DNA of 39,180 nucleotides from IMG/VR virus record IMGVR_UViG_3300025325_000074, positions 1 to 39,180 of that record; one strand, given 5' to 3'. Each line of letters begins with the position of its first letter. Position 1 is the stretch's first letter. The translations under genes were made by a program, and so were the position numbers. This DNA is from a virus. The notes beneath the pieces are model-generated. The model was not told the DNA's origin. It worked only from the letters and a program-made list of their open reading frames with translations, and did not search any database. Shown piece after piece: positions 14,464 through 31,304 of the stretch.

Positions 14464-15314
14464 TGCTAACGCTGCTTGTCGCTTGTTTGCTGTCAGGTCA
14501 GTCCGTCTACAAGGGCAGCGTAGCCATCGACCAGGCCGGCACGGTGCTATCGCTGGGGACGCTCAACGATGGCGAGTGTCTAAAGCGCGTCGGCGGCGAG
14601 ATCGCGACGGTTGCGTGCGGAGGCGGTGCGCTTCCGTCAGGTGCCGTGATCTTGATCGTGAGCGGGTCCTGCCCTGCCGGTTTTACTGAGGTCGCGAGCC
14701 TCGCCGGAAAGTTCTTGCTCGGGACCACAAACGGTGCGGGAGACGTCGGCACGACCGGCGGCAGTAACAACATCACGCCGACCGGGATAGTGACTGCGCC
14801 GACGTTTACCGGCTCAGCGCTCGGGACGCACGCTCACGGAACCGGCACCTACGCGACGAGCGCGCACGCCGGAACTGCGGTCGGCGACCATGCGAGCCAC
14901 ACGCACACGTACACCGACGTGGTCTCGCACACGCACACGCAGGACGCGCACACTCACACGCAGAACGCTCACCAGCATGGGATGGCTGAGGGCACCACAG
15001 ATGGGTCGGGGACGTTCATGGATCGCTCGAACGCCGCGGCAGCCACGACGGCTGTCACCGACAACGCAACAGCCACGAACCAGAACGCGACCGCTACGAA
15101 CCAGAGCACGGGTATCGCCACGGGTACGACCGCTGGCCCAGGCGCTGTGCTTACCCACAGCGTCACGCAGCCATCAGCGCACACGCTCAGCGGATCGAGC
15201 GAAGCTCTGAGTGCGGGGACGCCTGCGGGGTCCAACTCCGCGCCGACGTTCACGGGGGATTCGTTTGACAATCGTCCAGCATGGCTTAAGGTGATCTTTT
15301 GTTCCGCCAACTAA
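14463..15314 (+). CDS. Collar/tip-type fibre protein with His-x-His metal motifs
   Basis: A 283-residue protein, one-base overlap (TGATG) with the upstream gene. After a short hydrophobic start ('MLTLLVACLLSGQS', a weak signal) it contains the tail-collar pattern 'SCPAGFTEVASLAGKFLLGT' with a following G-G-S-N-N. The centre has clustered H-x-H: H-A-H, then 'SHTHTYTDVVSHTHTQDAHT', then H-T-Q-N-A-H-Q-H. H-x-H runs bind iron in the T4 gp37 needle tip. It ends 'FDNRPAWLKVIFCSAN', the typical collar-domain C-terminus ('NRPp...l.yiik'). Likely the tip of a trimeric adhesin, perhaps partnered with the preceding gene. Confidence 0.7.
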   Translation: MLTLLVACLLSGQSVYKGSVAIDQAGTVLSLGTLNDGECLKRVGGEIATVACGGGALPSGAVILIVSGSCPAGFTEVASLAGKFLLGTTNGAGDVGTTGGSNNITPTGIVTAPTFTGSALGTHAHGTGTYATSAHAGTAVGDHASHTHTYTDVVSHTHTQDAHTHTQNAHQHGMAEGTTDGSGTFMDRSNAAAATTAVTDNATATNQNATATNQSTGIATGTTAGPGAVLTHSVTQPSAHTLSGSSEALSAGTPAGSNSAPTFTGDSFDNRPAWLKVIFCSAN

Positions 15315-15324
15315 AGGAGGGCTC

Positions 15325-15639
15325 GTGAAGAAGGTCGCATTCGCCGTACTGCTGTTCCTCGTAGCCGCACTCGTGGTCGCACAGACCAGCTACACCTACA
15401 ACGCCACCGCACGCGAACAGGTGACGGTTCAGCGCGTCCGCACGGATCGTGGGCTCGGGACCGAACAAGCGGCGTTCAACGCGCTTGTGGGCCCGTGTCT
15501 GGTGTCGATCGTGAGCGACCACGACGCCGACGACCGGCGCGCGGACTGTGTAGCGTGGCTCAGCTTGCCCGCCGCGGCCCGCAACGGTCACTGTGTGGCC
15601 GCCGGTCGGCCGGCGGGTTGCCGGCTTGGGTGCCCGTGA
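15325..15639 (+). CDS. Small secreted protein of unknown function
   Basis: A 104-residue protein with a very strong ribosome site (AAAGGAGG, 15313-15320) before GTG 15325. The signal peptide is 'MKKVAFAVLLFLVAALVVAQ'. The mature part has four or five cysteines, consistent with disulfides after export. No family recognised. Its C-terminus runs into a GGCCGGCGGGTTGC segment that is repeated at 15726-15739. An ATGA-coupled 35-codon frame (15639-15746) follows, but I do not accept it as a gene. Confidence 0.55.
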   Translation: MKKVAFAVLLFLVAALVVAQTSYTYNATAREQVTVQRVRTDRGLGTEQAAFNALVGPCLVSIVSDHDADDRRADCVAWLSLPAAARNGHCVAAGRPAGCRLGCP

Positions 15640-15739
15640 TGCGCTCAGCGAGCAGCCCGCTGGCGCATGGTCCAGTCGGGTCGAGTCCTCTCGCCTCTGG
15701 TGGTGCGGTTGGCGCGAGTCTACCAGGCCGGCGGGTTGC
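15608..15739. repeat. 14-base direct repeat flanking a short non-coding segment
   Basis: GGCCGGCGGGTTGC occurs at 15608-15621 and 15726-15739, 118 bases apart. The first copy is in the end of the small secreted gene. The second lies just upstream of the ribosome site of the subtilase gene. The segment between has no convincing coding potential and may be a small duplication or insertion. Confidence 0.6.
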
Positions 15740-15771
15740 TCGGTGAGCGCTTTTCAGGAAGGAGGTGTGGC

Positions 15772-17568
15772 TTGATTCGACACGCTATCGCGATCGTACT
15801 GTGCCTGCTGCTGGTGTCGTGCGGAGGTGGCTTCCCGATCCCCATCCCGAGCCCGCCCTTCCCGATCCCGACGCCGCAGCCGGAGACGCCCTATGTCTGC
15901 TCCGCGCCTCCCGCGCTGCGCGGCGTGATCTCCGTGGCCGAGCCGATCGAGGGCAGATACATCGTCGTGCTGCGTCCGCGCGTGGGGGCACAGTCGGTGC
16001 GGACCCAGGCTGAGGTGCAGGCGGTCGCCGCCCGGTACTCGGTGCTGAGCCAGGTGCAGACGCTCGGGAGCCTCGGTTTCAGCGCGGTGACGACAGCGGC
16101 GGGCGCCTCGCAGGTAGCGCTCGATCCGGAGGTGGCGTACGTCCAGCAAGACGGGCGCAAGAGTACGCGCTCAGGTGTGTTGGTTCTGGCGTCGCAAGTT
16201 GCTTCTGGTGTATCCGGCCCGATAGGTCTCGGGGTGGCGGCTTCGCCAACGCAGTCCTCGATCTCGCTCGCAGAGACGGCATTGCATGGAAGGTCCAGGG
16301 CGATTCGGAGGATAGACCTCTCGCAGGTTCGCGGCCGAGAGTTCGTGTCCATTGCGACACCGCAGACCACGCTTCGGCTTGCCTCGGAAATGATGCGAGG
16401 TGTGCTGTCCGATGGTCATCAGTCGCAGATGATCGGGGTTGACGCAAGCACGCGTTCCACAGATGTGATGGACTTGCATCCCCGTCGGGATCGGGCCAAC
16501 GAACAACTCGTAAGCCACACGATGGGCATTTCTGCTTTCGTCCGTGGTGAAACGGAAGCGTCCATATCCGTGCGCGAAGCCTCCAGTCCAGAGATGGCAG
16601 CCCGTGTTCACTGGCCGTATGTACTTCTGGAAGCGGACGCCGAGTTCGCTGCGTGGTCTCAGCAGTCCTTTGTTCCACGTCTTGTGCCCAGGCCGGAAGG
16701 ATCCGGAGTTTCGAGCGTGCATGGACAGACAGTATCACATTTGACCGTGTCTGTCACGCCCGGTCTCGATCGCTCGGATCAGCGCGACTTGCCTCTTGAC
16801 GGCATCTTCGTTCCCGTTGGGACTGGAGAGGGCATCCATGCGTACATCGGAGACACGGGCATCGACTCGCAGCATTCCGAATTCGCTGGACGTCTGGGGG
16901 AGTGCTTCACTGCGCACACCTTTGGTGGCTGCGAGGACCGTCACAACCATGGGACGCACGTGGCTTCTATCACGGGTGGTACACAGTACGGCATCGCGAA
17001 ACGTGTCACTCTGCACTCGGTGCGGATGTTGAACGAGCAAGGCAGCGGTTCCGATTCCGACGTAGTCCGTGGTATCCAATGGGCTGCGGCGAATCGGAAG
17101 GCTGGCGGTTGGAACGGCGTGCTCAACATGTCGCTCGGCGGCTCGCCTGCGCCTGCTCTCGACGCTGCGGTCTGCGCTGCCATCGCGGATGGCCTCACGG
17201 TCGTGGTCGCAGCTGGTAACGATGGCGCCGATGCCTGCGGATCCTCGCCGGCCCGTGTGGATCTGGCGTTAACTCTCGGCGCCATGGACCCACGAAACGA
17301 TCGCGGGGCCGATTTCAGCAACGGCGGTCCTTGCACTGACCTCTATGGTCCTGGCATGGACATCGAGGCAGCACGACGCGGGGGCGGCTCAATCACTTTC
17401 AGCGGGACGAGCATGGCCTCCCCTCACGCCGCAGGTGTCGCTGCGCTCTGCGCGCAGCGCACCACGGGTGACCCGGTCGAGGTCATGCGCTGCGTGCTGG
17501 CGAGCGCCACGCCCGACACGCTGACCGGGGTCGTGGGCCCGAACCTGCTGACGTACGCGAGGGAATAA
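15772..17568 (+). CDS. Subtilisin-family (S8) lipoprotein protease with I9-type propeptide
   Basis: 598 residues from TTG 15772, chosen because GGAGG (15761-15765) is correctly spaced. Residues 1-16 plus lipobox 'LLVSC' (Cys17) mark a lipoprotein, followed by a Pro-rich spacer. Residues about 55-128 form an inhibitor I9-type propeptide ('GRYIVVLRPRVGAQ' to 'VALDPEVAYVQQDG'). The enzyme begins near 'TPGLDRSDQRDLPLDG' (about 329). It has an intact triad: D361 in 'YIGDTGID', H393 in 'NHGTHVASI', S547 in 'SGTSMASPHAAG', and oxyanion N483 in 'AAGNDG'. Between propeptide and enzyme, about 195 residues are simply the complement of an antisense HNH gene, yet the frame stays open. The protease is expected at the cell envelope. 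Confidence 0.75.
   Translation: MIRHAIAIVLCLLLVSCGGGFPIPIPSPPFPIPTPQPETPYVCSAPPALRGVISVAEPIEGRYIVVLRPRVGAQSVRTQAEVQAVAARYSVLSQVQTLGSLGFSAVTTAAGASQVALDPEVAYVQQDGRKSTRSGVLVLASQVASGVSGPIGLGVAASPTQSSISLAETALHGRSRAIRRIDLSQVRGREFVSIATPQTTLRLASEMMRGVLSDGHQSQMIGVDASTRSTDVMDLHPRRDRANEQLVSHTMGISAFVRGETEASISVREASSPEMAARVHWPYVLLEADAEFAAWSQQSFVPRLVPRPEGSGVSSVHGQTVSHLTVSVTPGLDRSDQRDLPLDGIFVPVGTGEGIHAYIGDTGIDSQHSEFAGRLGECFTAHTFGGCEDRHNHGTHVASITGGTQYGIAKRVTLHSVRMLNEQGSGSDSDVVRGIQWAAANRKAGGWNGVLNMSLGGSPAPALDAAVCAAIADGLTVVVAAGNDGADACGSSPARVDLALTLGAMDPRNDRGADFSNGGPCTDLYGPGMDIEAARRGGGSITFSGTSMASPHAAGVAALCAQRTTGDPVEVMRCVLASATPDTLTGVVGPNLLTYARE
16171..16722 (-). CDS. HNH homing endonuclease, antisense inside the subtilase gene
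   Basis: The only convincing minus-strand gene: 183 residues. The N-terminus 'GSFRPGHKTWNKGL' is the F-x-x-G-x-x-x-x-N-K-G motif common in homing endonucleases. The core reads 'GCHLWTGGFAHGYGRF', 'AHRVAYELFVGPIP' and the HNH centre 'VHHICGTRACVNPDHL' (H85/H86, N95, H98), with Cys pairs for zinc and a later 'CRNGH...CRLC'. It is closely related in layout to the HNH at 18503. It lies between the propeptide and catalytic parts of the subtilase. Its own promoter candidate lies at the 16724-16755 junction. It is too short to be carried in a group I intron with a full ribozyme. Confidence 0.85.
   Translation of the reverse strand: MHARNSGSFRPGHKTWNKGLLRPRSELGVRFQKYIRPVNTGCHLWTGGFAHGYGRFRFTTDESRNAHRVAYELFVGPIPTGMQVHHICGTRACVNPDHLRLMTIGQHTSHHFRGKPKRGLRCRNGHELSAANLREVYPPNRPGPSMQCRLCERDRGLRWRSRHPETYRAGYTRSNLRRQNQHT
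16724..16755. promoter_or_regulatory. Inverted repeat and weak minus-strand promoter at the HNH insertion edge
   Basis: GACAGACA (16724-16731) and TGTCTGTC (16748-16755) form an 8-base inverted repeat around 16 bases. Read on the minus strand the same segment offers GTGACA followed by GATACT, spaced 15 bases, just before the HNH ATG. It may be the HNH gene's promoter with an operator, or the scar or border of the insertion. Confidence 0.35.
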
Positions 17569-17858
17569 TGGATCGGGTACGCCTGATCGAGCTGCTCCTG
17601 TTCTGCTCGGCGACTGCGCTGCTCGGGTGGATTGCTGGAGCCGGCGGCCTAGGCGCGGCGAAGCCGGTGAAGCCGGCGACCCAGCCGATCCCGACGACGA
17701 TTCAGCAGGCACCAACCGGGAACATCCTCTATCGGGACAAGCGGATGGTGCTGTACTTCCTGTGCGACCAGGCTGGGGGGCGCTTCGTGCTGCTCGACTT
17801 CGGGCAGCAGTACCTGCACGGATATCAGGCGGGCGGGTGCGCGCCCGAGGTGTGGTGA
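17568..17858 (+). CDS. Small membrane-anchored protein, lysis-region candidate
   Basis: A 96-residue protein whose ATG shares a base with the subtilase stop (TAATG). The N-terminal hydrophobic helix ('LIELLLFCSATALLGWIAGA', residues 6-25) is followed by a Pro/Thr-rich linker and a small globular end with two Cys ('MVLYFLCDQAGGRFVLLD' and a late C). One TM plus a periplasm-sized domain. Possibly part of the lysis or envelope set with the next gene. No family recognised. Confidence 0.5.
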   Translation: MDRVRLIELLLFCSATALLGWIAGAGGLGAAKPVKPATQPIPTTIQQAPTGNILYRDKRMVLYFLCDQAGGRFVLLDFGQQYLHGYQAGGCAPEVW

Positions 17859-18202
17859 TGGACTGGTCCCGGATCACCGAAGGTCAGCTCCTCGCCGCGA
17901 CGCTGCTGGTGTCCGTCACGGCTCTGGGTGGCATCCCGCTCGTGCGACTCATCCGTGCGGCCCGAGCGAAAAACGGGGAAGCGAGCGGCCACGATCATGA
18001 GCGGCGCGAGCGGTCGTGCGGTGTCCTGGAAGAGCGGGCGGGCGGGATCGAGGTCCGCGTGTCGGTGGTCGAGGCGGGGCTCGTGGCTGTGCGCGAGGAC
18101 GTCGCCGCGATCCGCAGTGAGGCGGGCGACCGTCACGGCGAGGTCATGCGTGCGATCGGCTCGATCACGGGCGAAATCCGGGCGCTGAGGCCGCGCGAGT
18201 GA
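17858..18202 (+). CDS. Membrane-anchored coiled-coil protein (spanin- or holin-like)
   Basis: A 114-residue protein, TGATG-coupled. A single TM helix ('LLAATLLVSVTALGGIPLVR', residues 11-30) is followed by a charged helix rich in Glu, Arg, Val and Ala with heptad-like spacing to the end ('VREDVAAIRSEAGDRHGEVM'). One N-terminal TM followed by a coiled coil is the shape of inner-membrane spanins and of some phage DUF-type membrane proteins. It lies upstream of the glycosidase-type lysin. Function by architecture only. Confidence 0.5.
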   Translation: MDWSRITEGQLLAATLLVSVTALGGIPLVRLIRAARAKNGEASGHDHERRERSCGVLEERAGGIEVRVSVVEAGLVAVREDVAAIRSEAGDRHGEVMRAIGSITGEIRALRPRE

Positions 18203-18315
18203 CCCAGGAGATCCTCGCGTTCATCGCTGGCACTGGCGTCGGGTGGTGGCTACGTCGCTGGTGGGAGCGGCGCCAGATGCATCGCTGGGGCTATATCCGA
18301 CCGAGGCACTGGTGA
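18199..18315 (+). CDS. 38-residue Trp/Arg-rich microprotein
   Basis: GTG 18199 overlaps the previous stop (GTGA), and the TGA at 18313-18315 overlaps the next GTG. The translation starts 'VTQEILAFIAGTGVGWWLRR' and continues with 'WWERRQMHRWGYIRPRHW'. A short hydrophobic segment followed by a highly basic, tryptophan-rich tail would insert in or lie on membranes. The overlaps on both sides support translation. It could be a second spanin-like or lysis-accessory peptide, but no family is recognised. Confidence 0.45.
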   Translation: MTQEILAFIAGTGVGWWLRRWWERRQMHRWGYIRPRHW

Positions 18316-18503
18316 CGGCGCACGTAGTCGCTGGCGAAGCCGGAGGCGGTGCGGTCGTGTTTCTGGTGCCAGTTGCAGGCGGCGGCCTGCGCTGGGCGTG
18401 CGGGAAGTGCTCGTTCGTTCGGGTGTACGCGACCAAGCAGGGAGCCATCAACGCTGTGGTGGAGCACATGGCGCGGCACGGCGTGCGTGCGGAGTTTCGG
18501 TGA
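18312..18503 (+). CDS. Small zinc-finger-like protein
   Basis: A 63-residue protein from GTG 18312 (GTGA overlap). The second half reads 'WACGKCSFVRVYATKQGAIN', followed by 'AVVEHMARHG'. The spacing C-x2-C-x(about 17)-H-x3-H is close to a C2H2 finger. It overlaps the ATG of the HNH-fusion gene by one base (TGATG). That ATG was probably once the start of the DUF5675 gene. Function unknown. Confidence 0.5.
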   Translation: MTAHVVAGEAGGGAVVFLVPVAGGGLRWACGKCSFVRVYATKQGAINAVVEHMARHGVRAEFR

Positions 18504-19108
18504 TGGAGGACTTCGGTCTGCTGCGCGTCGCGATCCGTCCCGAGGGCGCGTTCGGCGTACTGCCTTGCAGACTTGGCGACGATCGTCTCCCGAACAGGTT
18601 TTGGTCCAAGGTGATCCCGATGGAAGTCGGCGGTTTTCGCCATGGCGACTGTTGGGGTTGGCTCGGGGGATCGACGTCCAATGGGTATGGAGGTTTCACG
18701 CTTGTAGATCGAAAGACCTCCGCCCACAGGTACGCTTACGAACATTTGGTTGGTCCTGTTCCCACGGAACTCACCCTCGATCACCTATGCCGCGTGCGCC
18801 GGTGTGTGAACCCGAACCACCTTGAAGTAACGACGAGGGGACAAAACGTACTGCGCGGTGTTGGCGTGACGGCGGTAAACGCGCGAAAAACGGAATGCCT
18901 CCGCGGGCACCAATTCGACGTTGCCAGGTCAGGGAGGCGTCACTGTCGGCGATGCTCTGCAAAGAAGACAGCAGACTATCGGCGGCGACAAGATTCTGTC
19001 TGGTTCCGCACCAGAGAAAATGCGCGACGCAGACAACGGTATCGGGAGGACTCGCAGTACCGTGAAATCTGCAAGACGAGAGCGCGTGCGTTCCGTGCCC
19101 GTGGCTGA
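18503..19108 (+). CDS. HNH homing endonuclease fused to a DUF5675-type N-terminus
   Basis: 201 residues. Residues 1-20 ('MEDFGLLRVAIRPEGAFGVL') match the first 20 of the next gene product ('VADFTLVRVVVLPQGAFGVL') at 12 of 20 positions and do not belong to an HNH protein. From about residue 28 it is an HNH endonuclease: 'GDCWGWLGGSTSNGYGGF', 'SAHRYAYEHLVGPVP', then 'LDHLCRVRRCVNPNHL' (D93/H94, N103, H106), a second Cys cluster 'CLRGHQF...CRRC', and a very basic tail. It seems to have inserted after codon 20 of the DUF5675 gene and taken over its coupled start (TGATG). The 3' end overlaps the next start. Confidence 0.8.
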   Translation: MEDFGLLRVAIRPEGAFGVLPCRLGDDRLPNRFWSKVIPMEVGGFRHGDCWGWLGGSTSNGYGGFTLVDRKTSAHRYAYEHLVGPVPTELTLDHLCRVRRCVNPNHLEVTTRGQNVLRGVGVTAVNARKTECLRGHQFDVARSGRRHCRRCSAKKTADYRRRQDSVWFRTRENARRRQRYREDSQYREICKTRARAFRARG

Positions 19109-19499
19109 CTTTACCCTCGTGCGAGTTGTCGTATTGCCGCAAGGAGCGTTCGGTGTCTTGCTTCATCACGACGTTCCGTTTTGTACGACCCTGGAGAGGA
19201 CCTACGCGCTGCCATCGGGTCCGGGCCAGCTCGTGAAGATCCCAGCTGGCCTCTGGCGCTGCGTGCGGACGCGCTACCTCCGAGGCGAGTACGACACGTA
19301 CGAGATCGAAGTGCCTGGGCACGCGCGGCTGCTGTTCCACAAGGGCAACGTGGAGCTACACTCCGAGGGCTGCGTGCTCGTAGGCGAGTCGTACGCGACG
19401 TTTGCTGGTCAGCCCGGGATCGCAGCGAGCGAGGCGGGTTTCGTCGAGTTCATGAACCGAGCGGGAAACCGCCCTGAGTTCCAGTTGAGGGTGACATGA
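19101..19499 (+). CDS. DUF5675-family protein
   Basis: A 132-residue protein from GTG 19101 (GTG 19095 is an alternative). It shows the DUF5675 order: an N-terminal strand with 'GAFGVL', 'PFCTTLERTYALPSG' (C-x-T-L-E), 'KIPAGLWRCVRTRY', then 'LLFHKGNVELHSEGCVLVGE'. The family has H-x-G-N followed by S/T-x-G-C. That H-G...S-x-G-C signature resembles the YkuD L,D-transpeptidase active site, but relatedness is unproven. It sits immediately before the glycosidase-type lysin and overlaps it (ATGA). The 5' end overlaps the HNH gene, so translation may depend on reinitiation. Confidence 0.7.
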   Translation: MADFTLVRVVVLPQGAFGVLLHHDVPFCTTLERTYALPSGPGQLVKIPAGLWRCVRTRYLRGEYDTYEIEVPGHARLLFHKGNVELHSEGCVLVGESYATFAGQPGIAASEAGFVEFMNRAGNRPEFQLRVT

Positions 19500-20887
19500 G
19501 CGACTTCCGTCACGTCGTGGCGCTAGCCTATCGTGAGATCCTGCTTCGTGAGCCAGATGCCGAAGGGTTGCTTCACCACAACGCGCGGATGCAGGCAGGT
19601 CTGCACGAGGCGCAGCTCCGCGAGGACATGCTGCGCAGTCCCGAGTTCGCGGAGCGCTTTCCGGACGCTGGGCCTCCGCCGCCACCGCCTCCGCCCGAGC
19701 CGACGATGCCGGAGCTGCGGTACGAGTTCCCGGAGTTCTTCCCGCCGCTAATCGGGGCGACGGTCTGTTGCGACGACCCCGACACGCCCGACGTGGACGA
19801 GGGCATCGCCTGGGGCTGGCCGCTGGTGATCCCCGCGATGCTCGATCGCTACGCTGCGGCCGGCATCAACATCACCGAGCTGCGCCCCGGACCATTCCGC
19901 AGCCCCTCGCCAGAGGCGCTGCTACCGGAGCTGGCGCGCACGGTGCGCGAGTGCGAGGCCCGCGGGATCTACGCGCTGATCGGCCTGATCGACCATTGGG
20001 CGCTGGATCACGACAAGACGCCGTGGGGAGATGGGCTGGAGGTCACGGCGCGCGCGCCGGAGCAGAGGCACAAGGACTGGATCCGCCAAGTGGTCGAGGC
20101 GACATGCCAGTCGCCCGCCGCGGTGTACTTCGACGGCAACGAGAGCTTCAAGGGCGAGCGCTCGGAGGCGTGGATCCGCGGGATCTATCGAGCGGTCCAA
20201 GGTGCGTTAGAAGAATCGGGGCTCTCGCCGTTCGAGAAACTGATCGGGAGCAACAGCGGCCGGTACGCGCTCGACTTCGTCGTCGGCCACGGCTGGCGCC
20301 CGGCTGTCAGGGGCGAGCTGCTGATCGAGTCCGACAACGAACCCCACACGCCCGAGGATTGGCTGGAGATGCAGCGTCTCAGCCGGGCGAACGGAGGGCA
20401 CCTGATCGCGTGGAAAGGAACTCTCTCGGATTCGGAGTGGTTCCGCCTCTTGCCCATGTTCGGTGGTGGCGCCGCACCCGTGCCCGCCCCGACTCCGTGC
20501 GGGGTTGCGCCGATGCCCGAGTGCAGCGCGCCAGGCAGCGAGGAGAAGGGCATTTACGGCTGCTGCCGGATGGTCGAGAAGTGGCGTGAGTGGTGTGGCC
20601 CGTCGCGCTTCCAGGGCGTCGTGGACGAGGTGCTCGACGAGATCATCGCGGAGCGCGGGACGAACCAAGTGGCGGATGAAGCCGAGTTCACCGCCGAGGT
20701 CGCGCGCCGCCTACGCCTGCGCGGGCTCTGCGCCACGACCAAGATGGAGACGCCCGGAGGCGGGTCCGATGACGAAGTCGGCGTCAAGGACAGCAACGAC
20801 CGCAGCGAGCAGTTCGACATCGTTTTCGCGAACGGCCGCGTGCGCAAGGGCGGATACGTGGCCGTCTGCCGGCCTGCGAGGTTCTGA
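19496..20887 (+). CDS. DUF4214 domain fused to a TIM-barrel glycosidase-like domain (candidate endolysin)
   Basis: 463 residues. Residues 4-56 match DUF4214: 'ALAYREILLREPDAEGLLHH' and 'LREDMLRSPEFAERF'. An eight-proline linker (60-67) leads to a barrel-like domain (about 84-320) with 'NITELRPGPF', 'YFDGNESFKG' and 'LLIESDNEPHTPEDWLEM'. E216 in G-N-E and E278 or E282 are plausible acid/base and nucleophile residues, as in retaining barrel glycosidases. A C-terminal Cys-rich region (C337, C344, C355, C356, C367) follows. It lies in the lysis region next to holin-like genes, so it is a cell-wall or surface-polysaccharide hydrolase candidate. The exact GH family is not resolved. Confidence 0.6.
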   Translation: MSDFRHVVALAYREILLREPDAEGLLHHNARMQAGLHEAQLREDMLRSPEFAERFPDAGPPPPPPPPEPTMPELRYEFPEFFPPLIGATVCCDDPDTPDVDEGIAWGWPLVIPAMLDRYAAAGINITELRPGPFRSPSPEALLPELARTVRECEARGIYALIGLIDHWALDHDKTPWGDGLEVTARAPEQRHKDWIRQVVEATCQSPAAVYFDGNESFKGERSEAWIRGIYRAVQGALEESGLSPFEKLIGSNSGRYALDFVVGHGWRPAVRGELLIESDNEPHTPEDWLEMQRLSRANGGHLIAWKGTLSDSEWFRLLPMFGGGAAPVPAPTPCGVAPMPECSAPGSEEKGIYGCCRMVEKWREWCGPSRFQGVVDEVLDEIIAERGTNQVADEAEFTAEVARRLRLRGLCATTKMETPGGGSDDEVGVKDSNDRSEQFDIVFANGRVRKGGYVAVCRPARF

Positions 20888-20890
20888 TGA

Positions 20891-20965
20891 CGCGGGGTAG
20901 CGAAACGGTAACGCGCTCGGCTCATAACCGAGAGGATGCGGGTTCAACTCCCGCCTCCGCTACCA
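20891..20965 (+). tRNA. tRNA-Met (anticodon CAT), CCA encoded
   Basis: 75 bases fold as a complete cloverleaf. The acceptor is 20891-20897 with 20955-20961, the D stem GCG/CGC, the anticodon stem CTCGG/CCGAG with loop CTCATAA (CAT at 20923-20925), a 5-base variable loop, a T stem GCGGG/CCCGC with loop TTCAACT, discriminator A and encoded CCA. Position 1-72 is C against U, an unpaired end like the C1-A72 mismatch of initiator tRNAs. However, the D stem has C11-G24, as in elongators. The anticodon could also be read as tRNA-Ile if lysidine-modified. It begins 3 bases after the lysin stop. Confidence 0.9.
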
Positions 20966-20984
20966 CTTTCCGAGGAGGAGGGTG

Positions 20985-21251
20985 ATGGCGCGTCGTGGCT
21001 GGAAGCCGATCATCACCCTCGTCCTCACGATTGGCACGCTGCCGCTCGCGGCGGGCTGGGTCGCGCTGATCGAGTTCCTCACGCTGCGCGACGACATGCC
21101 CGCGAACCACATCACCGCCGCCTTCCGCTGGGCACTCGCGACGAGTCCGGATCTGACGGTCGTCGTGCTACTGTTCCTGACAGGCGTTTTCAGCGTGGCC
21201 CTCGGCGTAGTGGTCGGTCACGTCTACGGAGACTGGAGGAAGCGCAAGTGA
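20985..21251 (+). CDS. Holin-like two-TM membrane protein
   Basis: 88 residues from ATG 20985 (GTG 20982 is an alternative) with a strong CGAGGAGGAG ribosome site, directly after the tRNA. Two hydrophobic helices are clear: 'ITLVLTIGTLPLAAGWVALI' (about 10-29) and 'LTVVVLLFLTGVFSVALGVV' (about 56-75). A charged connector separates them and a basic tail (DWRKRK) ends the protein. Size, topology and position after the lysin candidate fit a holin, though 23963-24427 is a second candidate. It is coupled to the next gene by GTGA. Confidence 0.6.
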   Translation: MARRGWKPIITLVLTIGTLPLAAGWVALIEFLTLRDDMPANHITAAFRWALATSPDLTVVVLLFLTGVFSVALGVVVGHVYGDWRKRK

Positions 21252-21436
21252 AGAATCCAGAGCCGGCCTGGAGGACCGAGAGCGCGTGCGAGTGGTGCCA
21301 GGGGCTCGAGGACGGCAAGATCGAGCGTGGGATCATCTGTCGCGGTTGTGGTCGTCGTGTACTGCCGCCGCGGAGCCGGTTCCAGACGCGATTCCAGGTA
21401 CGGACGCTTGCTTTCGGAGATCCAGGCAAGGCATGA
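21248..21436 (+). CDS. Small zinc-ribbon protein
   Basis: A 62-residue protein from GTG 21248, overlapping its neighbours by 4 bases on each side. 'ESACEWCQGLEDGKIERGII' is followed by 'CRGCGRRVLPP': C-x-x-C and C-x-x-C about 17 residues apart, a classical zinc ribbon, then a basic tail. Function unknown. Confidence 0.6.
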   Translation: MKNPEPAWRTESACEWCQGLEDGKIERGIICRGCGRRVLPPRSRFQTRFQVRTLAFGDPGKA

Positions 21437-21645
21437 CGCGCTGGGGCCGACTCAAGATGCGCGTAACCGATCCGCCTCGGCGTTGGCTTACGCGCGCGGC
21501 TACTTGGTGGCTCAGTCCGCAGAAGCCGCCCCGTACAATCGTCTGCCCACGCTGCGGCAACAGTGTGACGACTTGGCGCACCTACTCGGGCGGTCGGCAG
21601 GAGTGCGTCCCGTGCGCGTCGTTGCCGTCAGGGAGGCGGAAGTAG
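21433..21645 (+). CDS. Small basic zinc-ribbon protein
   Basis: A 70-residue protein starting at ATG 21433 (ATGA overlap). The first half is strongly basic and Trp-rich ('RRWLTRAATWWLSPQKPP'). The second half carries 'IVCPRCGNSV' and 'ECVPCASLP', two C-x-x-C knuckles. This is the second consecutive zinc-ribbon gene, and the pair may work together. A nucleic-acid-binding role is likely but unproven. Confidence 0.6.
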   Translation: MTRWGRLKMRVTDPPRRWLTRAATWWLSPQKPPRTIVCPRCGNSVTTWRTYSGGRQECVPCASLPSGRRK

Positions 21646-21648
21646 GTC

Positions 21649-22035
21649 ATGAGTACGGTCCGTGCGCTAGTCGAGGGCAGCCCGCAGATCGCTGCGACGG
21701 CGCCAGCGCAGACGAGCATCGCCGATACCGCGGCCTTGATCGTCGCTGCGAACCCGAAGCGGAAGGGCTTGATCGTCCAGAACACGGGCACCACTGTTAT
21801 CAAGCTTGCGCTCGGCTCAACTGTGCCGGATCAACTGGCGTATCACATCGCGCTCAAGGCGTGCTCCACTGCGGATGATGGCCTGGGCGGCGTCTACTTC
21901 GATGATGGCTGGGCCGGCCCGGTCTACGGCATATCGAGTGCTGCGGGCGGAACGTTCGTGCTGACAGAGATCACGACCGGAAACCCGGATTGGAACCTGG
22001 CGAGCGATCCGGGACGAGGCTACCCTCTCGGATGA
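21649..22035 (+). CDS. Beta-sandwich virion protein, fibre-associated
   Basis: 128 residues. The pattern 'LIVAANPKRKGLIVQNTGTT', then 'IALKACSTADDGLGGVYFDD' and 'GWAGPVYGISSAAGGTFVLT' matches a small phage beta-sandwich family found beside fibre genes ('aNp.Rkgl.iqN.g...i.la.G...'). It lies immediately upstream of the repeat-bearing fibre, with an ATGA overlap. A chaperone, connector or decoration role is possible. There is no enzymatic motif. Confidence 0.55.
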   Translation: MSTVRALVEGSPQIAATAPAQTSIADTAALIVAANPKRKGLIVQNTGTTVIKLALGSTVPDQLAYHIALKACSTADDGLGGVYFDDGWAGPVYGISSAAGGTFVLTEITTGNPDWNLASDPGRGYPLG

Positions 22036-23426
22036 GCGGACGTGCGCTCCAACGCGGCCTGAGCATTCCCTCTGCAGCAGTGGGTGGAGGCGGCGCACCG
22101 ACTGATGCACAGTATCTGGTGGGCAGCGCTCACGCATCGTTGACCGCCGAGCGTGTCGTCACGGATACGGCTACTGTCGCCTGGGATCTGGCGACAGCCG
22201 GGCAGGCCAAGGCCGACGTGCCGGACAACGCCATCACCTACGCCAAGATGCAGAACGTGTCCGCCACGGACAAGGTACTCGGACGGTCCACTGTGGGCGC
22301 GGGAGACCCGGAAGAGATCGCCTGCACGGCGGCTGGTCGCGCCATCCTCGACGACGTCGACGCCGCAGCGCAACGGACCACGCTAGGGCTCGGGGCGCTA
22401 GCGACTCTCGCAACGGTAGGGACGGCGCAAATCGACAACGACGCGGTCACCTACGCGAAGGTCCAGAACGTCAGCGCTACCGACAAGGTGCTCGGCCGGT
22501 CGACTGCGGGAGCCGGGGATGTAGAGGAAATTGCTTGCACCGCAGCGGGTCGAGCGCTGCTGGACGATGCCGATGCCGCTGCCCAGCGGACCACACTAGG
22601 GCTTGGTGCGCTCGCTACACTAGCGACCGTTGGCACAGCGCAAATCGACAATGATGCTGTGACGTACGCAAAGATCCAGAACATCAGCGCTACGGACAAG
22701 GTGTTGGGTCGCTCTACGGCCGGCGCTGGCGACACTGAGGAGATTGCGTGTACCGCAGCGGGTCGGGCGATTCTCGACGACGCGGACGCGGCTGCTCAAC
22801 GTACAACGCTTGGCCTGGGCGCCCTTGCTACGCTCACAACGGTCGGTACTGCACAGATCGACAATGATGCGGTCACGTATGCGAAGGTTCAGAACGTCAG
22901 CGCCACAGACAAACTACTCGGCCGTTCTACGGCGGGCGCGGGCGACGTCGAAGAGATCGCTTGTACGGCTGCGGGGCGTGCGCTGCTGGACGATGCGGAC
23001 GCTGCTACTCAACGTGCAACGCTGGGCGCGGGAAGACACCTCCAGTTTGCCTGCGCTTCCACAAGCCCGGCCGACGCAGCGACTCTCTACATCGGGGGGC
23101 TACCTGCTGCTGGTGCTACAGCCACCGCCGCCATTCTACGTGTTCAAATCCAAAAAGCGGGCACCGTCAAGCGCGTCGATATCAACATCCTGGTGGCAGG
23201 CGTACTCGGGACGACCGAGAACACGTCGGTTTACTTCCGCTTGAACAACACGACGGATACGACGATCACGACTACGGCGCAGCACAATACCGCCTATCAA
23301 ACTTACGGTGCCGACGTGTCGGTTGCTGTCGTGGCGGGCGACTACTTCGAGATCAAGCTGGTTTATCCGACGTTCGTCACGAATCCAACGACCGTTCTTT
23401 ACTGGGGCGTCGTGTACATCGAGTAG
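22032..23426 (+). CDS. Tail fibre with four 71-residue tandem repeats
   Basis: 464 residues from ATG 22032. Residues 1-69 form a head region with a Gly-rich hinge. From Tyr70 a 71-residue unit repeats: 'YAKVQNVSATDKVLGRSTAG', then 'AGDVEEIACTAAGRALLDDA', then 'DAAAQRTTLGLGALATLATV' and 'GTAQIDNDAVT'. Repeats start at residues 70, 141, 212 and 283; the last is shortened. The 'LG..aL.....' and 'D.a.t..K' elements are common phage-fibre triple-helix/coiled motifs. The C-terminal 130 residues form a beta-rich tip. Repeats are almost identical in protein but clearly different at synonymous sites. Confidence 0.75.
   Translation: MSGRALQRGLSIPSAAVGGGGAPTDAQYLVGSAHASLTAERVVTDTATVAWDLATAGQAKADVPDNAITYAKMQNVSATDKVLGRSTVGAGDPEEIACTAAGRAILDDVDAAAQRTTLGLGALATLATVGTAQIDNDAVTYAKVQNVSATDKVLGRSTAGAGDVEEIACTAAGRALLDDADAAAQRTTLGLGALATLATVGTAQIDNDAVTYAKIQNISATDKVLGRSTAGAGDTEEIACTAAGRAILDDADAAAQRTTLGLGALATLTTVGTAQIDNDAVTYAKVQNVSATDKLLGRSTAGAGDVEEIACTAAGRALLDDADAATQRATLGAGRHLQFACASTSPADAATLYIGGLPAAGATATAAILRVQIQKAGTVKRVDINILVAGVLGTTENTSVYFRLNNTTDTTITTTAQHNTAYQTYGADVSVAVVAGDYFEIKLVYPTFVTNPTTVLYWGVVYIE
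22239..23033 (+). repeat. Four direct repeats of 213 bases in the fibre gene
   Basis: Units begin at 22239, 22452, 22665 and 22878, each opening with a TAY Tyr codon; the fourth is truncated at about 156 bases. Protein identity between units is very high, with variation at only a few residues (for example M/V/I after YAK, P/V/T before EEI, A/T in LATL). The DNA differs at many third codon positions. Confidence 0.9.
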
Positions 23427-23428
23427 TC

Positions 23429-23761
23429 ATGCGCCTCGTCACGATCACCGTCGCTGGAGTCACCGAGGCGCAGGCTGCGGCAGCCATCTCGGGGTACGAT
23501 GGCTGGGTGGTCTCCGTCACTGTCCTACGCGCCGCAGGACCAGCAGTTGCCGGCGTACAAGTCTCGATCTTGCTGAGCCGCGGTGAGTGGCCCACGCTGC
23601 GGAGCCGTCTGGTGACGTTCATGGGTGCGCGCGGCGTGCTCGATGACGCACTGGTGACGTGGCAGGTACACGCGGACACGGTCGAGCTGTTCGATGCATC
23701 CGACCGGGGGCGTCGAGTCGGAAACGTACACCGGCTGAAGCCGGACGGATCGGAGGACTGA
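23429..23761 (+). CDS. Unknown protein downstream of the repeat fibre
   Basis: A 110-residue protein starting 2 bases after the fibre stop. The first half is beta/alpha with 'LVTITVAGVTEAQAAAAISG', and the second half contains 'VLDDALVTWQVHADTVELFD' and a basic end. No family recognised. Being placed directly after the fibre suggests a fibre-assembly or unrelated accessory function. Neither is supported by a motif. Confidence 0.5.
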   Translation: MRLVTITVAGVTEAQAAAAISGYDGWVVSVTVLRAAGPAVAGVQVSILLSRGEWPTLRSRLVTFMGARGVLDDALVTWQVHADTVELFDASDRGRRVGNVHRLKPDGSED

Positions 23762-23764
23762 GCG

Positions 23765-23953
23765 ATGCCAGTTAGTCAGACGGTGGCGCAACTGCGCCAA
23801 GCGCGCGCGGTCCTCGCGCAAAAACTCCGCAACGTCGACGCGGCATTGGAGCGACTTGACGCGGACCCGAGCCTCGAGCAGTTCTTGGTGATACTGGAAA
23901 AGGCCGAAGCCGCACTGCGCGACACGTCGGGACGCGGAAACCCGAACCAGTAG
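23765..23953 (+). CDS. Small coiled-coil protein
   Basis: A 62-residue, almost entirely helical protein with heptad-like spacing: 'VAQLRQARAVLAQKLRNVDA' and 'ALERLDADPSLEQFLVILEK'. It ends in a short polar tail. Likely a dimeric or trimeric coiled coil. It sits between the fibre accessory gene and a two-TM protein. No specific function is visible. Confidence 0.5.
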   Translation: MPVSQTVAQLRQARAVLAQKLRNVDAALERLDADPSLEQFLVILEKAEAALRDTSGRGNPNQ

Positions 23954-23962
23954 GAGGAGAAC

Positions 23963-24427
23963 ATGAAACTGGTACTGAATCTGTTGAAGGGCCTGGGCCT
24001 CAAGGGCGCCGGGAAGCTGGTGCCTTTCGGGGGCGTCGTCTACGGTCTCGCGATCGCGGCGCTGAAGCTCTCAGGCCAGGATGGCGCCGCGACTGCACTC
24101 GAGCAGGTCGGGCCCATCGTGGGCCTCGAGACGCCGTTCCCGCTCGGTGTGCTGACCGTGTTCTTGACGACCGGGTACGGGATCATGAAGTTCCTGGGGT
24201 CTGCGATCAAGCGCGCCCAGGTCGAGCGGCCGATCGACCAGGTCGTCCCACGCCTGCCGGACGGAGGGCGGGACTACTTCTTCGAGTTGCTCCACGTGCT
24301 TCAGGCGGACCAGGGCCTGCCGCTGGACAAGGCGTTCCGGCGCTCGCGCGAGCTCCTGGCTGACGCCGAGCGGGCGGGCATCTCGCCGGCTGCGATCGTG
24401 GCGCACCTGCGAGAGAACAAGGCTTGA
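23963..24427 (+). CDS. Two-TM protein, second holin candidate or membrane accessory
   Basis: A 154-residue protein with a strong TAGGAGGAG ribosome site before ATG 23963. Hydrophobic segments 'LVPFGGVVYGLAIAALKLSG' (about 20-40) and 'PLGVLTVFLTTGYGIMKFLG' (about 58-78) are followed by a soluble helical C-terminal half containing 'VVPRLPDGGRDYFFELLHVL'. It is longer than most small holins. The stop TGA (24425-24427) sits inside a TTGACA motif. Function uncertain. Confidence 0.45.
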   Translation: MKLVLNLLKGLGLKGAGKLVPFGGVVYGLAIAALKLSGQDGAATALEQVGPIVGLETPFPLGVLTVFLTTGYGIMKFLGSAIKRAQVERPIDQVVPRLPDGGRDYFFELLHVLQADQGLPLDKAFRRSRELLADAERAGISPAAIVAHLRENKA

Positions 24428-24525
24428 CAGCGGGCATACGATAGAGGGCGACGCTGCCACAAAAGAGCAACGCCCGGGGAGGTGAGTGACCCCGGGCGAA
24501 CTGCGGCGTCACGGAGGTAGATTCC
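24428..24525 (+). promoter_or_regulatory. Intergenic leader with a strong GC hairpin
   Basis: TTGACA at 24424-24429 overlaps the preceding stop, but I see no -10 at the usual distance. A perfect 8-base stem GCCCGGGG (24472-24479) and CCCCGGGC (24490-24497) with a 10-base loop lies 28 bases before GTG 24526. There is no U-tract, so this may be an attenuator-like or RNA-protecting element, or a GC terminator separating the structural and replication genes. Confidence 0.45.
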
Positions 24526-28736: not shown

Positions 28737-31304
28737 GTGCCCGTGGCCGCCCGTCCAACCTCTGACGATCAGCTTGCAGACGAGGTCGCGCGCTACTTCG
28801 CGGACCCGCTGGGGTTCGTGCTGTTCGCGTATCCGTGGGGCGAGCCCGGGGCCCTTGAGGGGCACGACGGGCCCGACATCTGGCAGCGTGAGTTTCTGCG
28901 GGGCGTCGGCGCTGAGGTCGCGGCCGCAGCGTTTGACGGCTTGACGCCGGTCGCGCCCATCCGGCGTGCGGTGGCGTCAGGTCATGGGGTGGGCAAAAGC
29001 ACGATGGCCGCGTGGCTTGTGGACTGGATCATGAGTACACGTCCGTTAGCGCGCGGCACCGTCACGGCGAACACGTTCACGCAGCTCCAGACCAAGACCT
29101 GGTCCGCCATCAAGGAGTGGACGTCGCGCTGCATCACTGCGCACTGGTGGGTGCTCGGCGACCAGCGCATGTACCACAAGGACCACAAGGACTCCTGGTT
29201 CTGCGCGCCGCAGTCGTGCAAGGAGGAGAACACGGAAGCGTTCGCCGGCCAGCACGCAGCGACCTCGACGAGCTTCTACATCTTCGACGAGGACTCGGCC
29301 ATCTCGGACAAGATTCACGAGGTCGCGGAGGGCGGCTTGACGGACGGTCAGCCGATGATCTTCCGGTTCGGCAACCCGACGCGCAGCATGGGCGGATTTC
29401 ACGCCGCGGTGTTCGGTCACGACCGTGCGCGTTGGCACCCGACGATCATCGACTCGCGTCAGTCTCGGCTGACGAACAAGGCGCAGATCGCGGAGTGGGA
29501 GCAGGAGTTCGGAGAGGACTCCGACTTTTTCCGCGTCCGGGTCCGCGGCATTCCGCCGCGGGCCTCTGACGCACAGTTCATCGACCACGAGCGTGTACTC
29601 CAGGCTCAGAAGCGCCAGGTGGCGGTGATGCCGGACGAGCCGCTGGTGGTCGGGTGTGACCTTGCGTGGGGCGGCTGTTTCGACTGCGAGACCGAGATTC
29701 TCACGAGCGATGGCTGGAAACTCTTTTCAGACCTGCGTGGATCGGAAGCAGTGCTGAGTTTGGATGGCGACGTAGCCACTTGGGCGCGCATGACGGCGAT
29801 CCATCGTTACTGGCATGATGGGGCGATGAACTTGCGCGAGTCGAGCAAGGTAAACTTTTGCGTAACTGACAACCACAACTTCATCGTGCGCTCGCACTAC
29901 ATGAGCAAGCGCTACCAGATTCGGCGGTACGATCGTCTCCCGAAGGCATATCAACTGCGGGCGTGGCATCGCTGGGAAGGGACAAGTCCAGCCACGATCG
30001 CCTTCGAATCTCAGAAACGCCAGCCTCACGGGGGCGCTGTTGTCTGGCGCCACACCTTTGCCGCCGAAGACTGGGCGGCGTTTTTGGGCTGGTTCGTTGC
30101 TGAGGGGAACGTCTATACGGCGAAGCTGCGGCCAGGTCAGCAGCAACGCCCACTCGTCGTAGAGCTTTCACAACGCCATGCGGAGAAGCGCAAAGAAATC
30201 GAACGCCTACTTTCTCGAATGGGCCTCCGTCATAGTCGGTGGAGTTCGCATGGCACGATCCGTTTCCAACATCGGGGGATTGGGGCTTGGTTACTGGAGC
30301 ACTGCGGGCATGGAGCTGCGAATAAGCGCATGCCCGAATGGATCAAGGAAGGTTCCGCTATCGTGATGCGGGCCTTTCTCGACGCATTTCGGCGTGGAGA
30401 TGGGAGCCAGCATCCGGATGGAACCGGACGTTGCTACTACACCTCCAGTCGAGCATTGGCGGATGATCTGCAGGAAGTGCTTGCGAAGTTGGGGTGTGCC
30501 GGTAAGCTGTCGCCCGCGGCACCAGCCGGATCGGTTGTGCTGATCGAAGGGCGCCGTGTGGTGCGACAGCACGATACTTGGCGCGTGGGTGAGCGTCCAT
30601 CACATGGTCGGCAAGGGAATCGTTGGCATGCAGATCGGACCGTACTCAAGCGGACAACACAACGTGTCCCGTATCGCGGCTTTGTGTGGTGTGTCTCGAC
30701 TCCGCACCGAACGATCTATGTTCGTCGTCATGGTGTTCCGATGTGGAGTGGGAACAGTGACGACAACGTGATCCGGTTCCGGCGCGGGAACGATGCGCGG
30801 TCGATCTCTCCGATCCGGATCAAGGGCGAGTTCACGCGCGACCCGGCAGTGCTCGTCAACCGGTTGGCGGACGTGCTGTCACGCACATGGGATGAGCATC
30901 CGGTAGCGGCGCTGTTTCTGGACAGCGCGGGGATCGCGGGCCCGATAGGCGCGCGGCTCCGGGCGCTTGGGTTTCAGCAGGTGCGCGAGATCAACTTCGG
31001 CAGCGACAGCCCCGACAGCAAGTGCCGGTACTATCGCGACTACATGTGGCAGCAGATGAAGGAGTGGCTGCTCGTGGGCGCGATCGACACGAGCGCGGAG
31101 CTCGAGAGCGACTTGATCGGACCCGGCGTGCGACCCGACCCGCGTCAGCGCGTGTGGCTCGAGAGCAAGGAGCAAATGAAGGGACGGGGTGTAGACTCTC
31201 CAGACGAAGGGGATGCCTTGAGCCTCACGTTCGCTGCGCCGGTGGGAGTCGTCCAGCGGCCGACGTCTCGCGTGAAACGGCCTGGGTCCTGGATGGGGGT
31301 GTAG
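28737..31304 (+). CDS. terL: Large terminase subunit with in-frame intein
   Basis: 855 residues in total; 495 after removing the intein at 314-673. ATPase: Walker A 'SGHGVGKST' (81-89) and Walker B 'FYIFDEDS' (180-187, D184/E185). Nuclease (RNase H fold): D308 in 'VGCDLAWGG', D729 in 'LFLDSAGIAGPIGARL' and D826 in 'SPDEGDALSLTF'. Removing the insert restores 'GCDLAWGG' joined to 'SDDNVIRF', the normal nuclease motif I. The GTG start lies 5 bases after the small terminase stop. TerL cuts and pumps DNA into the P22-like procapsid. Without splicing the nuclease site would be broken. Confidence 0.92.
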   Translation: MPVAARPTSDDQLADEVARYFADPLGFVLFAYPWGEPGALEGHDGPDIWQREFLRGVGAEVAAAAFDGLTPVAPIRRAVASGHGVGKSTMAAWLVDWIMSTRPLARGTVTANTFTQLQTKTWSAIKEWTSRCITAHWWVLGDQRMYHKDHKDSWFCAPQSCKEENTEAFAGQHAATSTSFYIFDEDSAISDKIHEVAEGGLTDGQPMIFRFGNPTRSMGGFHAAVFGHDRARWHPTIIDSRQSRLTNKAQIAEWEQEFGEDSDFFRVRVRGIPPRASDAQFIDHERVLQAQKRQVAVMPDEPLVVGCDLAWGGCFDCETEILTSDGWKLFSDLRGSEAVLSLDGDVATWARMTAIHRYWHDGAMNLRESSKVNFCVTDNHNFIVRSHYMSKRYQIRRYDRLPKAYQLRAWHRWEGTSPATIAFESQKRQPHGGAVVWRHTFAAEDWAAFLGWFVAEGNVYTAKLRPGQQQRPLVVELSQRHAEKRKEIERLLSRMGLRHSRWSSHGTIRFQHRGIGAWLLEHCGHGAANKRMPEWIKEGSAIVMRAFLDAFRRGDGSQHPDGTGRCYYTSSRALADDLQEVLAKLGCAGKLSPAAPAGSVVLIEGRRVVRQHDTWRVGERPSHGRQGNRWHADRTVLKRTTQRVPYRGFVWCVSTPHRTIYVRRHGVPMWSGNSDDNVIRFRRGNDARSISPIRIKGEFTRDPAVLVNRLADVLSRTWDEHPVAALFLDSAGIAGPIGARLRALGFQQVREINFGSDSPDSKCRYYRDYMWQQMKEWLLVGAIDTSAELESDLIGPGVRPDPRQRVWLESKEQMKGRGVDSPDEGDALSLTFAAPVGVVQRPTSRVKRPGSWMGV
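29676..30755 (+). other. Intein with LAGLIDADG homing endonuclease in terL
   Basis: 360 residues, C314 to N673 of the precursor. Block A starts 'CFDCETEILTSDGWKLF'. Block B is 'VTDNHNFIV'. The two endonuclease motifs are 'FLGWFVAEG' (449-457) and 'FLDAFRRGDG' (547-556), with acidic residues E456 and D555. Block F is 'YRGFVWCVSTPHRTIYVRR' and block G is 'VPMWSGN' followed by extein Ser674. The penultimate residue is Gly, not His. The insertion point is between the two halves of nuclease motif I. The DNA is visibly less GC-rich than the flanking terminase coding sequence. Confidence 0.9.

Follow-up and report, generated by a model that had tools for sequence, protein, structure and literature searches.

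The analyzed DNA (hereafter the window) is a virus record of 39,180 bases. An ORF encoding 86 aa (18243..18503, + strand), with no Pfam match, is directly followed by an ORF for a 201-aa HNH endonuclease (18503-19108, +), whose ATG at 18503 overlaps the TGA stop codon (18501-18503) of the upstream ORF. A Shine-Dalgarno-like GGAG is visible by eye 8 nt ahead of this ATG. The HNH ORF is in turn followed by an ORF encoding a 132-aa DUF5675 protein (19101-19499, +), whose GTG start at 19101 creates an 8-nt overlap (19101..19108, +) with the end of the HNH ORF, including its stop codon (19106-19108). The operon-style TGATG and the GTG overlapping the HNH stop, both part of the original prediction, were thus confirmed. 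No Shine-Dalgarno sequence is evident by eye before the GTG, and DUF5675 translation would presumably restart by translational coupling at the overlap. The DUF5675 gene is complete, with a full-length match to PF18925 in its product (51.5 bits; model positions 2-111 of 114). Its stop codon is overlapped by 4 nt by the ATG of the next gene (463 aa; 19496..20887, +; DUF4214 match weak and under the cut-off), in an operon context, and a single tRNA-Met (CAT) gene lies behind the latter (20891-20965, +). The region is 100% identical in two further IMG/VR records and is therefore not the artefact of one assembly; these records could nevertheless come from a single virus population.

Elsewhere in the window, the ORF at 21990-23426 (+) contains several near-identical repeats (TTLGLGALATLATVGTAQIDNDAVTYAK...) and perhaps encodes a repetitive virion protein. 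The large terminase ORF (28737-31304, +) contains, by eye, an apparent intein-like insert (approximately from GGCFDCETEIL to HGVPMWSGN), and its PHROGs terminase match spans residues 44-313 only.

The 201-aa protein belongs to the HNH_3 family (PF13392 at residues 74-116, nucleotides 18722-18850; 42 bits against a cut-off of 24.8, E = 7e-11) and matches phrog_826 (E = 4e-39). It has kept the metal-finger residues H75, D93, H94, C96, C101 and H106; H75, D93, H94, H106 and the cysteines are invariant across 40 aligned HNH proteins. No Rfam intron was found at the gathering threshold in window positions 15000-21000, and an intron or intein is also opposed by the separate stop codon of the HNH ORF and the new start codon of the host gene.

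Residues 1-20 of the HNH protein (MEDFGLLRVAIRPEGAFGVL) and of the DUF5675 protein ((M)ADFTLVRVVVLPQGAFGVL) are identical at 12/20 positions, or 13 with the start residue, and the first 20 codons share 35/60 nucleotides. The BLOSUM62 score of this pair is 68; the maximum obtained by shuffling was 47, and 0/200,000 shuffles reached the observed value. When 2253 start-anchored 20-mers from either strand of the window were scored against the HNH start, that of DUF5675 ranked first (score 63; runner-up 13). The match at 12/20 positions, and the description of the DUF5675 5′ segment as a diverged copy, are therefore both borne out.

The codon usage of the two ORFs changes near the ends of the shared segments. 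The GC3 value over 25 host genes is 0.80. Within the HNH ORF it is 0.85 for codons 1-20 and 0.60 for the body, and within the DUF5675 gene 0.57 for codons 1-30 and 0.82 for codons 31-132. Switch points were located by a codon-usage likelihood ratio (host vs HNH body): the host-like HNH prefix ends at codon 18-20, and the best switch in DUF5675 is at codon 29. Codon usage as foreign-like as that of DUF5675 codons 1-30 was observed in 82/6515 host windows of 30 codons and at 0/25 gene starts. This pattern fits what is expected if HNH codons 1-20 are native and DUF5675 codons 1-29 are element-borne. The locus may consequently be divided into (i) a putatively captured 5′ segment comprising native DUF5675 codons 1-20 (18503..18562, +), which carries the host start signal and is delimited by the shared residues and GC3, (ii) the presumed element-derived HNH body (18563..19108, +), (iii) a candidate carried replacement 5′ end of DUF5675 (approximately codons 1-29; 19101..19187, +), placed by GC3 and the codon-usage switch, whose right boundary may be off by about ten codons, and (iv) the rest of the host gene (19188..19499, +); PF18925 spans the entire protein.

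The recurrence of this layout was examined by comparing each HNH N-terminus with the beginning of the gene behind it. Start-anchored scoring was adopted because unanchored local alignments between HNH N-termini and their neighbours suffered from noise caused by Arg/Pro-rich frames. The first set comprised 117 non-redundant HNH ORFs at 132 loci (83 usable), and eight cases scored at least 30: L134, the window (= L004), L021, L062, L080, L008, L034 and L131. In all eight (8/8), the distance from the HNH stop to the start of the next gene is between -8 and +3 nt. Among 6798 mismatched pairs from this set, the eleven top scores are homologies and the next highest is 36. Seven of the eleven pair the L021 HNH start with the starts of genes located downstream of other HNHs (six of these are known SSB genes), and an adjacent HNH in L066 is involved in the remaining four. 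The latter locus, dropped as a case, has a repeat beside tandem HNH genes: an identical 17-residue stretch, MVDTGGAQRHPADTERL, occurs there twice (4627 and 5227). A last scan of new loci (53 usable) yielded one clear (L315) and one borderline case (L308). No fused captures were found among 49 other HNHs of the same viruses (0/49) or among 18 HNHs from bacterial genomes (0/18).

With all sets pooled (277 HNH ORFs, 137 with a coupled downstream start; threshold of 25 or more), an N-terminus common to the HNH and the downstream gene was detected in 10/137 coupled HNHs, a count that includes the weak cases L308 (score 26) and L131 (7 residues), compared to 27/2792 non-HNH coupled pairs (Fisher p = 4e-6); mismatched pairs scored 25 or more in 21/18,624 instances. 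Other HNH genes with fused host-gene N-termini followed by a reconstituted gene, as envisaged in the original prediction, were thus sought and found. Since the HNHs of the window, L021 and L034 and an alignment of the first eight cases served as queries for the viral set, these loci are in the sample by design. A clear codon shift is confined to the window and L134, where it sits in the downstream and not in the fused copy; it is partial in L080 and absent in L021, L034, L131, L062 and L008.

Comparison of flank against flank for 271 HNHs, on either strand, added two loci in which the native 5′ fragment is not fused to the HNH but stopped or out of frame (L313 and L234), one in which the HNH is antisense to the host gene (L041), and one in which the 3′ end has been exchanged, with a nuclease C-terminus before the HNH and the remnant behind it (L243). 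The carried-end layout was found at 14 loci in all. Flank matches such as those of L108, L178, L311 and L148 were dropped, as they look like an effect of composition. A possible 3′ mirror case, L141 (2836-3297), in which the HNH ends with RGFTRGCPGK and the preceding gene with ERFERGCPGPS (about 7 shared residues), was left out of the count. According to PHROGs, the targets include an SSB (L021), a head-tail adaptor (L062), an ssDNA annealing protein (L034) and an exonuclease (L008); those of L134, L131 and L080 have no PHROGs match, and those of L041, L234, L313 and L243 look, by eye, like nucleases. In a tree built from 252 HNH cores, 14 changes are needed to account for the 14 cases (mean of 13.8 for shuffled labels), which are thus no less scattered than shuffled labels.

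Relatives of the window without the insertion were searched for using DUF5675, the next gene and the portal gene, and identical copies or fragments lacking the region were the only ones recovered. Of 11 related records, two contain PF18925 and these are identical to the window, and megablast of window positions 15000-24500 against phages gave no match. Phage searches with the sequences of L034, L008, L134 and L234 returned no or weak matches, and L313 short matches only; a strict empty site was not found. Tandem paralogy would mean that the DUF5675 gene was duplicated first and an HNH then replaced the body of the first copy. Paralogous coupled neighbours do occur among the control pairs (L331 and L012), but DUF5675 is present in one copy per record in 29/29 matching phage records, and a tandem full-length duplication, which the original prediction had named as contrary evidence, was therefore not seen. 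Such a history would, moreover, require separate duplications of many different genes, with each copy shrinking to a few codons and the second start coming to lie beside the HNH stop, and it misfits the antisense (L041) and 3′ (L243) cases. We consider it improbable.

The age and origin of the two copies were assessed from synonymous sites and from intact homologs. Of the 133 codon pairs at the 14 loci that encode the same residue in both copies, 86 differ, and independent sampling according to local codon usage would give 80.5. Synonymous sites have thus reached saturation, and a recent duplication is excluded. An excess of synonymous re-coding was tested for and not found (simulated p = 0.18), so selection for dissimilarity is not claimed. 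In L021, the SSB behind the HNH starts with MANATTLTVVGNLVEDPTLR. The captured end of this locus is closer in DNA than the replacement to 8/8 distinct intact SSB genes (L159 being the same genome as L155), among them those of Gordonia phage TZGordon (49/60 vs 37/60) and contig L149 (45/60 vs 37/60). The SSB genes of TZGordon and L149 have no HNH of their own in front, and the TZGordon match to the captured end reaches 13 nt upstream of the start codon. The other six (6/8) stand behind their own HNH without a clear captured end: these are from five Streptomyces phages (L108, L109, L110, L111 and L115), some of whose HNHs, placed directly before the SSB gene, share just MA with it, and from Rothia. 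At the protein level, 6/8 SSBs are nearer the captured end and 2/8 (those of PapayaSalad and Austintatious, 14 vs 12) nearer the replacement. No wider synteny exists between L021 and the intact-SSB phages, and these therefore do not represent a full empty site. Judging from the intact SSB relatives, the HNH-fused copy is the probable native 5′ end in L021, and SSB looks like a recurrent HNH target. In L080, an intact homolog from a Synechococcus phage (cyanophage) matches the captured end at 9/10 and the replacement at 7/10 residues; the Mariokart homolog of the L062 gene was uninformative. The simplest reading is that the replacement end may be of foreign or long-separated origin, which is favoured by codon usage at the window and L134 and in part at L080.

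Two further explanations may be judged against these data. If the 5′ end had been copied upon HNH insertion, in the manner of a long target-site duplication, and had diverged later, the same order of parts would be expected. However, the same-residue codons differ at close to the random expectation (86/133), the host-gene copy in L021, though constrained, is further in DNA from intact SSB genes than the fused one, and the shifted codon usage of the window and L134 is in the downstream copy; this origin is also unlikely. Alternatively, an HNH already located upstream could have gained the DUF5675 start of a related phage through a single illegitimate recombination, in which no mobile element carrying an end is involved. 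Phages are mosaic, and the five Streptomyces phages do have an HNH directly upstream of SSB without capture. Against such an accident, the layout recurs around many genes and the fused part in the window has host-like codon usage, which makes it very improbable.

The N-terminal segment was also compared with those of HNH relatives. A tblastn search of viral contigs identified 143 HNH relatives, of which 80 were kept, and nearly all matches in the kept loci begin at approximately residue 20-51 (two window-identical records aside). Each of the ten earlier-starting viral relatives (window copies aside) was inspected, and none has a DUF5675-like start. In phages, 1183 records match the HNH; among the 60 listed, no match starts before residue 7, and in six of these, all Streptomyces phage records, it starts at residue 7. 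HNH homologs with the same N-terminus in other contexts, which would have spoken against the original prediction, were accordingly not seen among the inspected relatives. In an AlphaFold2 model of the HNH protein, confidence is mostly high from residue 28 onward, and residues 1-20 have a mean pLDDT of 45-47, which is weak evidence because the alignment scarcely supports the N-terminus. The captured segment has been retained, although it is apparently dispensable. That the HNH N-terminus resembles DUF5675 by chance or for a reason of its own is scarcely credible: the retention of a seemingly dispensable segment might suggest some function, but the inspected HNH relatives lack the similarity, which no shuffle reached and which was the best of all 2253 starts.

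We therefore return to the insertion of an HNH element after codon 20 of the DUF5675 gene, expressed from the host start and bringing a diverged replacement 5′ end, which was the core of the original prediction and which we consider probable. It is supported by codon-usage switches at the predicted junctions, by recurrence around different genes and by the SSB relatives of L021. The two copies, their junctions, the integrity of the gene and the recurrence of the layout are all apparent at the level of nucleotide sequence. According to this model, a free-standing HNH element would have inserted after codon 20, so that HNH synthesis now begins at the host translation start and runs through the first 20 host codons, and would have brought a diverged replacement (approximately codons 1-29), with a GTG start, behind the HNH stop. 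This end continues in frame into the remaining part of the gene, and a full-length DUF5675 protein is therefore still possible. As expected from homing-endonuclease biology, the enzyme would cut uninserted DUF5675 genes near the insertion point, and repair from the inserted genome would copy the HNH and the replacement end as one tract. The altered copy would escape cutting and recombine poorly with the native fragment. Native translation signals would drive the HNH gene, and the host gene would restart, presumably by coupling, at the HNH stop. As a refinement, the native 5′ end need not be fused to the HNH, given that L234, L313, L041 and L243 differ in this respect; the principle common to the cases is the carried replacement end and not capture of the start signal.

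The closest likeness is to fungal mitochondrial mORFs with a foreign carboxy-terminus, described for atp6, atp9, cox2 and nad3 of Glomus sp. and atp6 of Allomyces macrogynus. In these (PMC3630166), the host gene receives, together with a mobile endonuclease gene, a diverged version of one of its ends; the resulting hybrid is in frame, a remnant of the native end persists, and the DNA diverges far beyond the protein. Likewise, the endonuclease ORF of the window lies between two diverged copies of a gene end, one of them in frame. The fungal elements differ in carrying a C-terminus, in encoding LAGLIDADG or GIY-YIG enzymes and in their mitochondrial location (PMC3630166), whereas the phage cases mostly concern the N-terminus (as in the window; L243 is a 3′ case), involve HNH enzymes, and often have a native 5′ end that drives the nuclease.

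Among phage elements, the mob and seg genes of T4-like phages are also free-standing nuclease genes, including HNH genes, with overlapping start and stop codons, but they lie between genes or split a gene (mobE/nrdA, mobA/gene 60), and a carried replacement end is not mentioned in the consulted part of the review (PMC2988022). In contrast to intergenic insertion, the HNH of the window is placed in coding sequence. The ShiLan element is likewise an HNH inside a phage coding sequence (a methylase gene, out-of-frame), but the host frame reads through it, and the excerpt considered mentions no duplicated gene end (PMC11855218). The window contains a second HNH ORF (P0003; 16171-16722, -), antisense within a subtilase ORF (15667-17568, +; residues 169-352), between a weak I9 propeptide match and an intact S8 domain (363-631), with the host frame open throughout. 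No duplicated end was detected in the P0003 flanks (score 48, not above control); of the two HNHs, this one is more reminiscent of ShiLan. Engineered home-and-rescue drives (HomeR) similarly combine a nuclease in a target gene with a re-coded restoring piece, but they are man-made, CRISPR-based and rescue the 3′ end (PMC7968924), and the comparison is an analogy only. Carried gene ends are unmentioned in the consulted sections of PMC10448857, PMC12724721 and PMC11855218.

No report of carried gene ends in phages was recognized in a search confined to the open-access literature. Homing endonucleases are thought to spare their hosts by sitting in introns, inteins or intergenic sites. The chances are about even that phages hold a widespread natural home-and-rescue class, in which HNHs home into the coding sequences of important genes with a diverged patch that is usually 5′ and sometimes 3′, in either orientation, and often take over the target's start signal. 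If members of such a class originate time and again in different HNH lineages and with different targets, gene-end capture would be a general intronless route into essential genes. The carried spare end would represent a further way of sparing the host, one that permits entry into an important gene. It would explain how free-standing HNHs enter coding sequences without gene loss, why HNH N-termini look unrelated, and how gene ends may be exchanged between phages. It would also parallel, as a natural system with several candidate pairs, the re-coded rescue used in engineered drives, and for annotation it would mean that HNH N-termini can be pieces of the following gene.
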